Shown piece after piece: positions 30,718 to 33,700 of a stretch of 64,000 nt of DNA (its first letter is position 1; each line of letters opens with the position of its first letter). Position numbers and translations under genes: made by a program. The notes beneath the pieces were generated by a model. That model had not been told where the DNA came from. It ran no database searches and saw only the letters and a program-made list of their open reading frames with translations. Origin of the DNA: Nitrosomonadales bacterium (lineage in GTDB: Bacteria; Pseudomonadota; Gammaproteobacteria; Burkholderiales; Gallionellaceae); NCBI GenBank assembly GCA_016199835.1, contig JACQFX010000009.1, positions 124,001 through 188,000 on the forward strand, read 5' to 3'.

Positions 30718-33700
30718 ATGAGCCACAAGCCCCACCCCATCGAAGTCCTGCTGCAAAAACGTATCCTGATCCTGGACGGCGCGATGGGCACCATGATCCA
30801 GCGCCATAAACTCAACGAGGCGGATTATCGCGGCGAGCGCTTTGCCGACTGGCCACGCGATCTCAAGGGCAACAACGATCTGCTGGTGCTGACCCAGCCC
30901 GAAGTCATCAAGGGCATCCATAGCGAATATCTGGAAGCGGGCGCCGACATCGTCGAGACCAACACCTTTGGCGCGAATGCGACCACGCTGCATGCCTATG
31001 GCATGTCGTCGCTCAACTATGAGCTCAACGTGGCCGGTGCGCGCCTTGCGCGTGAGGCGTGCGACGAATATGCCACAGTGGACAAGCCGCGCTTCGTCGC
31101 CGGCGTGCTGGGGCCGACCGACAAGACGGCGACCATCTCGCCCGACGTGAACGATCCCGCAGCGCGCAACATTACTTTTGATCAACTGGTGGCCGATTAC
31201 TCCGATGCGACGCGCGGCCTGATGGACGGCGGCGCCGACACCATACTGATCGAGACTATCTTCGACACGCTGAATGCCAAGGCAGCCATCTTCGCGGTGA
31301 AGGCGGTGTTCGAGGAGCGCGGCACTTCGTTGCCTATCATGATCTCCGGCACGATCACAGACGCCTCGGGGCGCACGTTGACCGGCCAGGTGACCGAAGC
31401 TTTCTACAACTCGCTGGCCCATGCCAATCCGATTTCCATCGGGCTGAATTGCGCGCTCGGCGCGGAGGAACTGCGCCAGTATGTGGCAGAGCTGTCGCGC
31501 GTCGCCAATTGTTACGTGAGCGCACATCCCAATGCGGGCCTGCCGAATCCCTTGGCCCCCACCGGCTACGACGACACGCCGGAGAATATGGCGGGGCACA
31601 TCCAGGAGTGGGCAGCGAGCGGTTTCCTCAACATCATCGGCGGCTGTTGCGGCACTTCGCCTGCCTTCATCAAGGCCATCGCCGAAACGGTGAAGGACAT
31701 CGCGCCGCGCAAGATTCCGCACAATCCGGTCGAGTGCCGCTTGTCAGGGCTGGAGCCGTTCAATATCGGCGACGACTCGCTGTTCGTCAACGTCGGCGAG
31801 CGCTGCAACGTCGCGGGCTCGGCAAAGTTCAAGCGTCTCATCATGGAAGCGCAACACGAAGAAGCGCTGGAGATCGCCAAACAGCAGGTGGAGAACGGTG
31901 CGCAGGTGGTGGACATCAACATGGACGACGCCATGCTCGACGGCGAGGCCGCGATGGTGAAGTTCCTCAACCTGATCGCCTCCGAGCCGGACATCTCCAA
32001 GGTGCCGGTGATGATAGATTCTTCCAAGTGGAACATCATCGAGGCCGGGCTGAAATGCGTGCAGGGCAAGTCCATCGTCAACTCGATCTCGCTGAAGGAA
32101 GGCGAAGAGAAATTTCTCGAACAAGCCCGCCTGGTTCGCCGTTACGGTGCCGCAGCAGTGGTGATGGCCTTCGATGAAAAGGGGCAGGCCGATACTTATG
32201 AGCGCAAGATCGAAATTTGCGAGAGATCGTATCGCTTGCTGTCCGGTGACCCGGCGCGCTTCAGAATTGAGACTCCTTCCCCCTTGCAGGGGGAAGGCCG
32301 GGATGGGGGTAGAAACGGCGTGGGCACAGACTCTTCTACCCCCTCCCTAACCCTCCCCCTGCAAGGGGGAGGGAACAGGTTGTCGGAATATGATGAAGGC
32401 ATTGGTTTCCCGCCCGAGGACATCATCTTCGATCCGAACATCTTCGCCATTGCCACCGGCATCGAAGAACACAACAACTACGCGGTGGATTTTATTGAGG
32501 CGACGGCGTGGATCAGGAAGAACCTGCCGTTTGCGAAGATCTCCGGCGGCGTGTCGAATGTTTCATTCAGCTTCCGTGGCAACGAGCCGGTGCGCGAGGC
32601 GATCCATACCGTGTTTCTGTACCACGCCATCAAGGCGGGCATGAACATGGGCATCGTCAACGCCGGGCAGCTCGGTGTGTACGAAGAAATTCCGAAAGAC
32701 CTGCGCGACGCGGTAGAAGACGTGGTGCTGAACCGCCATCCCGATGCGGGCGAGAAGCTGGTCAAGCTGGCCGAGACCGTAAAGGGCGGTGGCAAGGAGC
32801 AAGTTGAAGACCTCGAATGGCGCAAAGGCACGGTGCAGGAACGCCTGACCCATGCACTGGTGCGCGGCATCACCACTTACATCGTCGAAGATGCCGAAGA
32901 AGCGCGCCTGCAAGCGAAGTTCCCGGTCGAAGTGATCGAAGGCCCGCTGATGACCGGCATGAACGTGGTCGGCGACCTGTTCGGCGCGGGCAAGATGTTT
33001 TTGCCGCAAGTGGTGAAGTCGGCGCGAGTGATGAAGCAGGCCGTGGCGCACCTGATCCCCTACATCGAGGCGGAAAAGCTGCGCTCAGGCGACACCAGCA
33101 CCAAGGGCAAGATCGTGATGGCCACGGTGAAGGGCGACGTACACGACATCGGCAAGAACATCGTCACCGTGGTGTTGCAGTGCAATAACTTCGAGGTGGT
33201 GAACATGGGCGTGATGGTGCCGTGCCAGCAAATTCTGGATACGGCGCGCGAGCACAACGCCGACGTGATCGGCCTGTCCGGCCTGATCACGCCCTCGCTG
33301 GAAGAGATGGCGCATGTGGCGAAGGAGATGGAGCGCCAAGGTTTCAAGATACCGCTGCTGATAGGCGGCGCGACCACTTCGCGCGTGCATACCGCAGTGA
33401 AGATCGAACCGAACTATCCGAGCGGCGCCACGGTGTATGTGCTGGATGCTTCACGCGCCGTGGGTGTGTGCAGCAACCTGCTCAGCAACACCTCGCGCGA
33501 CAGTTACATCGCCGAGATCAAGGCCGACTACGCGGCGGCGCGCGAGCAGCATGAGGGCAAGAAGGGCAAGGCCTCGTATGTCTCGCTGAAGGAAGCGCGC
33601 GCGCATGGCTTCAGGGCGGACTGGAAAAAATACACGCCGCCCAAGCCGCAGCTTCTGGGCGTACACAAGTTCGAGGGTTACCCTCTCGACAAAATCGCCG

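Follow-up and report, generated by a model that had tools for sequence, protein, structure and literature searches.

An in-frame palindromic repeat in the methionine synthase gene metH of Gallionellaceae: probably an old landing in a permissive loop

How does a long DNA palindrome come to lie inside the gene of a highly conserved enzyme, and how does the enzyme live with it? The question is raised by metH, the gene of cobalamin-dependent methionine synthase, in a 64,000-nucleotide stretch of DNA (the window) from a Nitrosomonadales bacterium, the 2.8-Mb draft genome of which is coded G000 among the carriers discussed below. The product of the gene contains five MetH Pfam domains (S-methyl_trans, Pterin_bind, B12-binding_2, B12-binding and Met_synt_B12). 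The palindrome within it (Table 1) is an imperfect inverted repeat of 101 bp, with 41-nt arms that are 83% complementary around a 19-nt spacer, and each arm has a hairpin of its own. The fold of the strand has an energy of -79 kcal/mol against a mean of -51.3 for shuffled sequences (z -6.8; 0 of 200 shuffles as good), and its inverted-repeat score is 20, the maximum across 136 other scoring windows of the same locus being 10. The first-pass annotation of the DNA had described an in-frame insertion that leaves a conserved enzyme open, and metH is indeed open throughout its 1278 codons; the reading of metH as a pseudogene was considered and rejected.

Table 1. Coordinates of the metH gene, its palindrome and insertion, and the related copy in cusA (positions in the window)
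Feature	Position	Strand	Remarks
metH, cobalamin-dependent methionine synthase	30718-34554	+	1278 aa, no internal stop
Upstream block uniting the eight carriers	32107-32241	+	135 bp; tree support 100, against the rest of metH
Whole metH insertion, codons 509-561 (SGDPARF...YDEG)	32242-32400	+	relative to 62 insert-free sites of the same family
Left palindrome arm	32274-32314	+	41 nt; inverted-repeat search
Left inner hairpin, CCTTCCCCC-TTGCA-GGGGGAAGG	32275-32297	+	23 nt; read from the sequence
Central spacer	32315-32333	+	19 nt; independent repeat copies differ in spacer
Right palindrome arm	32334-32374	+	41 nt; inverted-repeat search
Right inner hairpin, CCCTCCCCC-TGCAA-GGGGGAGGG	32351-32373	+	23 nt; read from the sequence
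Related palindrome in cusA/AcrB-type gene (7763-11020, -)	9658-9760	+	in frame; 79% identical to the metH copy

The element had been put at about 99 bp, or about 33 codons. A double palindrome of nearly that size (101 bp, 32274-32374) is real, but it is not the insertion itself: relative to insert-free relatives, metH has 159 nt in place of about 9 nt (three codons), a net gain of 150 nt, so that the palindrome makes up only two thirds of the insertion and the insert amounts to about 50 codons rather than 33. The commonest insert-free sequence at the site resembles SYDILVNKVGFPPED. Compared with the MetH of the window, that of E. coli would be some 50 residues shorter.

A query of 97 residues spanning the site was searched in 158 Gallionellaceae-type genomes, most of them multi-contig drafts; 141 matched, and eight of the 158 matched straight across the insert. 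The site itself was read in 70 genomes including all eight carriers, the remaining matching genomes being judged from split or short matches, and it holds the insert in eight of the 70 and is free of it in 62; presence and absence among relatives are informative, as the first-pass annotation had anticipated. The carriers (G000, G001, G006, G028, G040, G041, G071 and G088) belong to five genera, and the inserts of seven of them outscore every other window of their own locus for inverted repeats, the exception being G041. In a first search outside the family 79 of 80 loci were readable, and an insert was found only in L093 (Sideroxydans sp. DeMMO3_12, a genome from a metagenome). Sideroxydans belongs to the Gallionellaceae (Betaproteobacteria), and since the insert and its surroundings in L093 are identical to those of G088, this is no ninth carrier. 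In a second set all 30 loci were read, with the insert only in two family carriers among them. Draft genomes and long palindromes, which are hard to assemble, could suggest an artefact of assembly or binning. We rejected this explanation as next to inconceivable: the insert occupies one codon position in eight separate genomes, lies inside a single contig in every one of them, and differs in sequence from genome to genome.

The inserts vary in length and keep the frame. From GDPARF to GFPPED the eight carriers have 141, 129, 138, 135, 147, 141, 150 and 216 nt, that is, seven distinct lengths (129-216 nt), every one a multiple of three and free of stops. By our own arithmetic, and assuming independence, six further lengths would all fit the frame by chance about once in 730. 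Since the changes of length preserve the frame, the frame is under selection and translation is the likely state; judged from sequence, the insert peptide is probably translated. Only two of the six frames are open across the element of the window. The peptides vary widely among the carriers, and the same arm can be read in different frames.

The same lengths bear on the idea that the insert is taken out of the transcript or the protein, as an intron, a bypassed stretch or an intein. Its patchy distribution, together with a shared flanking stretch (see below), resembles that of homing elements, but a length that always keeps the frame is unneeded in an insert that is taken out, and the insert has no Rfam family at the gathering score, no Pfam domain over it and no room for an endonuclease. 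We regard removal as highly improbable, and we rejected the intron and intein readings, there being neither a splicing domain nor a catalytic RNA; none of these hallmarks of homing elements, endonuclease included, was found in the insert with Pfam and Rfam. At a permissive threshold Rfam gave 32 matches, all below the gathering score and mostly to microRNA hairpin models, the kind of match that a long hairpin could produce.

An AlphaFold2 model of the folate domain (347 residues, 38 sequences) has a mean pLDDT of 85, with 240 of the 347 residues at 90 or above. Its closest PDB matches are MetH folate domains (3k13, 9ssp and 4ccz), and the equivalent of the insert site in human MetH is at chain residues 523-527. 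Model residues 172-209 (MetH 518-555), which lie between the helix 148-163 and the strand 223-226, have a pLDDT below 50. The insert is predicted to be a disordered loop within an intact folate barrel, and this prediction, like the seven in-frame lengths, fits the earlier suggestion that elements of this kind become peptide linkers. In such barrels the loops after helices face opposite the active site, and the insert would lie away from the catalytic side.

We propose, with a probability of about 0.72, that the metH insert is a selfish or neutral dispersed palindrome that landed long ago in a permissive loop and is read as a disordered peptide. A member of a family of GC-rich palindromic repeats, built of two hairpin-bearing arms of ~41 nt, inverted around a short variable spacer, would have landed, probably once and long ago, in the loop that joins helix to strand in the MetH folate domain. 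Its survival would be due to a reading frame that stays open through it and gives a disordered loop of ~50 residues, rich in Pro, Ser and Gly, at a distance from the catalytic side. Changes that break the frame would be purged by selection on MetH, with the repeat itself neutral or selfish and not useful; the arms would keep changing, probably because one arm is copied onto the other and other palindromes are exchanged in, and old, short recombination would have carried the stretch with the insert between lineages. A useful insert, whose peptide or strong mRNA hairpin tunes the folding, domain movement or expression of MetH under positive or balancing selection, strikes us as improbable. Such an insert might persist in a highly conserved enzyme across five genera, as this one does, and the residues of the flanking helix co-vary with it, but the peptide differs widely among carriers, even in the reading frame used for an arm, 62 relatives have no insert, and similar peptides are found in many unrelated proteins.

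That the palindrome is a dispersed repeat is seen in the genomes of the carriers. The window genome has 37 BLAST matches to the element at E 0.001, several of them being both strands of one place. Matches at E 1e-6, with strands taken separately, number 24 in G001, 22 in G071, at least 80 in G041 and in G088, four in G040, one in G028 and none in G006. In four genomes the copies have similar arms and differing spacers, except for the PurL pair of G041 and one multi-copy repeat (L313-L315, L317-L319). This last consists of six near-identical copies in G041 which have their flanks as well as the palindrome in common, so that a larger repeated unit of that genome carries the palindrome inside. 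The copy in cusA, proposed earlier to be the same kind of element, is indeed a relative, with 79% identity, and is oriented on the + strand, the same as in metH; as cusA lies on the minus strand, its frame runs through the complementary strand of the copy, and the resulting peptide is another one.

We examined 51 flanked copies: the eight longest in G000, eight from each of G001 and G071, and 27 of many in G041 (the metH copies of G001, G071 and G041 are outside this set). Sixteen of the 51 lie in a frame that stays open through them and for 80 codons or more to either side (G000 5/8, G001 2/8, G071 2/8, G041 7/27), an upper figure because one of them, L319, belongs to the multi-copy repeat and another, L311, is without a Pfam match. 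Nine are flanked to either side by frames of this length on one strand, but the copy itself is closed to them, and these may be broken genes or gene ends; the other 26 are neither in frame nor flanked by such frames. By Pfam, the in-frame copies of the window genome are in genes of MetH, an AcrB-type transporter, DNA polymerase I, MmeI and a type I restriction R subunit (HsdR). Those of relatives are in genes of a sugar/MFS transporter, a Fer4/CCG protein, RecG, a DUF3418 (HrpA-like) protein, an MnmC-like two-domain protein, PurL (twice), a MutM-like glycosylase and an epimerase-like protein, the names RecG, HrpA, MnmC and PurL being inferred from Pfam content. The metH case, to which a special standing had been given, loses it in the company of polA, MmeI and HsdR in the same genome and of PurL-, RecG- and MutM-like genes in relatives. 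Some copies lie between domains (in polA between two exonuclease domains, in MutM before H2TH, in PurL beside domain ends), and those of metH, cusA, HsdR and MmeI lie within one. Among 31 copies scored, L313 and L327 were the only ones at which outer inverted repeats beyond the arms exceeded every shuffle; such repeats are thus no part of the general element.

Inside palindromic repeats we noticed by eye a 53-nt hairpin element (CTGATGGAACTACTAGCC...CTGGTTA), present in 12 fetched loci, some overlapping, which stand for about ten places (L016, L051, L089, L229/L295, L236/L244, L247, L266, L268/L302 and L303). It also occurs within the in-frame palindromes of the RecG-, MFS- and HrpA-like genes. 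The hairpin element seems to target palindromes; more generally, palindromes seem to attract other palindromes.

The inserts of the eight metH genes do not look like copies of one recent arrival. The two arms within one element are alike (mean 0.85 over seven elements, G040 being left out of the arm averages). One arm type is common to four carriers, with between-carrier values of 0.84 for the left arm and 0.83 for the right, and another to two carriers (0.82); the two types differ from each other (0.58 left, 0.62 right). In G041 the types are mixed, its left arm being closer to the second type (0.79 vs 0.63) and its right arm about equal (0.71 and 0.70). G040 has a 47-nt unit at mirrored positions of both arms, 44 of 47 nucleotides identical. 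Copying between arms, combined with exchange with other palindromes, would explain these changes of arm; for G040 an alternative is two insertions, one into the same target in each arm. A single recent event does not agree with eight carriers in five genera that have different arm types.

The carriers are also scattered on the tree of their host protein. A protein tree of MetH, built from 30 family and six outside sequences with the insert region excluded and L096 dropped, does not unite them in a clade: the best tree has seven changes, six of which are forced by well-supported branches, and holding the carriers together makes lnL 395 worse (AU p 2.3e-8). Insert-free G045 and carrier G071 have a DNA identity of 0.91-0.97 in most windows along the gene. 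In the 200 bp before the insert the nearest genome of each of the eight carriers is another carrier; elsewhere in metH it is usually an insert-free genome, though not for the pair G041/G088 or in some cases that are nearly tied. Over 70 genomes, the tree of the 135-bp block unites the eight carriers in one clade with support of 100, whereas they need seven changes both in the 360 bp upstream (69 rows, AU p 0.014) and in the 360 bp downstream (70 rows, AU p 0.006). One row of the upstream tree, G013, is faulty, with a very long branch, and was left out of the upstream set for the synonymous-codon comparison. In insert-free G093 and G118 the first part of the block is carrier-like and the second ordinary, and judged from the alignment the block of these two genomes looks mosaic.

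The age of this local signal can be judged from 26 codons of the block that encode one amino acid in all 70 rows. Identity at these codons is 0.555 between carriers, 0.546 between carriers and non-carriers, and 0.65 in pairs of non-carriers. Synonymous codons hold no carrier signal, so that either the exchange took place long ago or what the carriers share is of the protein level only; a recent transfer of the block, which we had expected, is unsupported by them. It also follows that the shared signal sits at amino-acid-changing sites, and the commonest residue differs between carriers and non-carriers at 11 positions, at two of these weakly. We read the block as the putative product of common descent of an old allele and old short-tract exchange, and its shared signal may have a purely protein-level cause. 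As a separate observation, the synonymous divergence of carriers is higher in the block, with a codon identity of 0.555 vs 0.708 in the stretch upstream and 0.676 in the one downstream; it looks as though sequence next to the palindrome were substituted or replaced at a higher rate.

Loops of other enzymes give natural comparisons. For cusA we fetched 30 homologous loci as the best matches to an insert-bearing query, a set that is thereby biased toward inserts, and 13 of the 28 scored exceed every other window in inverted-repeat score. With a slightly wider pattern, 21 inserts of at least 60 nt fall into five nucleotide clusters, one of 16 and four small; among the small ones, two are of the VRPELVEG/FDRLRANG kind and a third is of the FPRKRES/IPAFAGMT kind. 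The nine remaining inserts are shorter, L432 among them because the pattern cut its insert. Core strings of the other cusA insert kinds occur 3 to 16 times in the 459 fetched loci. In polA the linker was readable in 27 of 30 fetched loci; 17 of the 27 outscore every other window for inverted repeats, and 23 are in one nucleotide cluster, the clustering being lenient. At purL site 2 there are three different palindromes, in G041, in G110 and in the pair G071/G045, and none in seven other genomes read. Several loops of cusA, and also of purL, are filled by unrelated palindrome families. The strand opposite the polA palindrome at L046:2857-2947 is also open (760 codons), and has no Pfam match there.

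Such sites invite the explanation that at metH, too, different palindromes entered the same loop separately, and that selection on the protein then made the shared flanking residues. This is how the five cusA clusters and the three palindrome types of purL site 2 look, and the synonymous codons of the metH block are without shared history. The flanks of the metH insert argue the other way: GDPARF stands on the left in all eight carriers and D[E/Q]GI on the right in seven, with TGI in G088, and none of the 62 insert-free sites read has an allele with the GDPARF flank. Moreover, the eight metH inserts form one nucleotide cluster under the same lenient clustering. We consider independent insertion unlikely, and prefer one old landing followed by exchange.

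A broader scheme, tentative and in our view somewhat doubtful, is that surface loops of a few housekeeping enzymes are standing landing pads, where an in-frame palindrome is a hotspot at which others insert, recombine or replace it, the hotspot in metH also exchanging the adjoining stretch between genera. If this were true, unrelated repeat families would succeed each other at one codon position with the enzyme staying in service, and metH would exhibit a homing-like spread without an endonuclease.

How does the element compare with known ones? The Rickettsia palindromic elements (RPE; Ogata et al. 2000, 2002, via PMC10969869 and PMC3767692) are described in the portions of these sources drawn on here as palindromes of about 100-150 bp, in frame in unrelated genes at solvent-exposed places; for some families, different types are at the same or a nearby site in different species. 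The metH element is likewise a repeated palindrome of roughly 100-150 bp, and in Gallionellaceae it too is in frame, with the frame unbroken, in unrelated genes. The likeness is one of description, and the host is of another branch, the Betaproteobacteria. According to the same portion of PMC3767692, which weighs hotspots against divergence from a single insertion, one site holds an insert in every Rickettsia orthologue; by contrast, the metH insert has a patchy distribution (8 of 70 sites read). Intragenic REPs (Di Nocera et al. 2013, PMC3733652) are, in the excerpted text, palindromes, often inverted dimers, coding for 20-30 residues of proteins that include DNA polymerase I, UvrA and RecBCD, and in two Xanthomonas species distinct REPs occupy nearly one site of recB; metH, cusA and purL are not named in that excerpt. 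Like a REPIN, the metH element consists of two palindromes inverted around a short spacer. Its GTAG, however, is on the spacer side, 11 nt from the left-arm hairpin and not at the stem base, so that no tag of the REP kind adjoins the hairpin. Y1-type transposase genes are found in six of seven genomes searched (26 matches), and none of the eight loci fetched around them has the palindrome; no mobilising enzyme was found there, and a RAYT/REP origin has no support from these eight loci.

With MITEs the element shares terminal inverted repeats, but it has no conserved interior, since independent copies differ in spacer, the G041 PurL pair and the multi-copy repeat excepted. A target-site duplication was sought at purL and metH and none was readable, the empty sites being too diverged. 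The enterobacterial ERIC/RU, MITE-like small repeats, also fuse in frame with genes (Delihas 2007, PMC2759123); their sequences and hosts are different, and the part of that paper cited here does not mention several families reusing one loop. Long inverted repeats are tolerated inside working enzymes in the mitochondria of Nematomorpha (PMC6649704), but there, on the evidence of the passages used, both arms encode conserved protein, unlike the added loop of metH. A literature search gave no paper on Gallionellaceae palindromes among the matches listed. In-frame palindromes are already known, so far mostly from Rickettsia or as scattered REP insertions; Gallionellaceae is a new lineage for them and the metH case a new variant. 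Two things are unusual: single loops are used again and again by several palindromes, and the metH insert comes with a local block. Beyond intragenic REPs, the present analysis adds a site-by-site survey of one family, the change of arm type and the upstream block.

One bacterial family provides many natural replicates, in which the same loop of MetH, DNA polymerase I, CusA or PurL is filled by different palindromes or is empty. They permit tests of how repeats enter genes, how proteins gain disordered loops and whether hairpins drive local gene exchange. For annotators there is a warning: peptides of this kind in conserved enzymes are no evidence of pseudogenes.

Two further features of the window are recorded here. 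Of the two units of a 52-nt direct repeat (87%) at 57835-58020, one is a tRNA-Arg (CCG) gene (57944-58020); the other lies upstream of it (57835-57886), resembles it in part and gets no tRNA call from ARAGORN. At 36133-38177 there are five FKBP-like units in tandem, named by eye from their motif: two are fused in one frame and are followed by three separate frames with lipoprotein-like starts.
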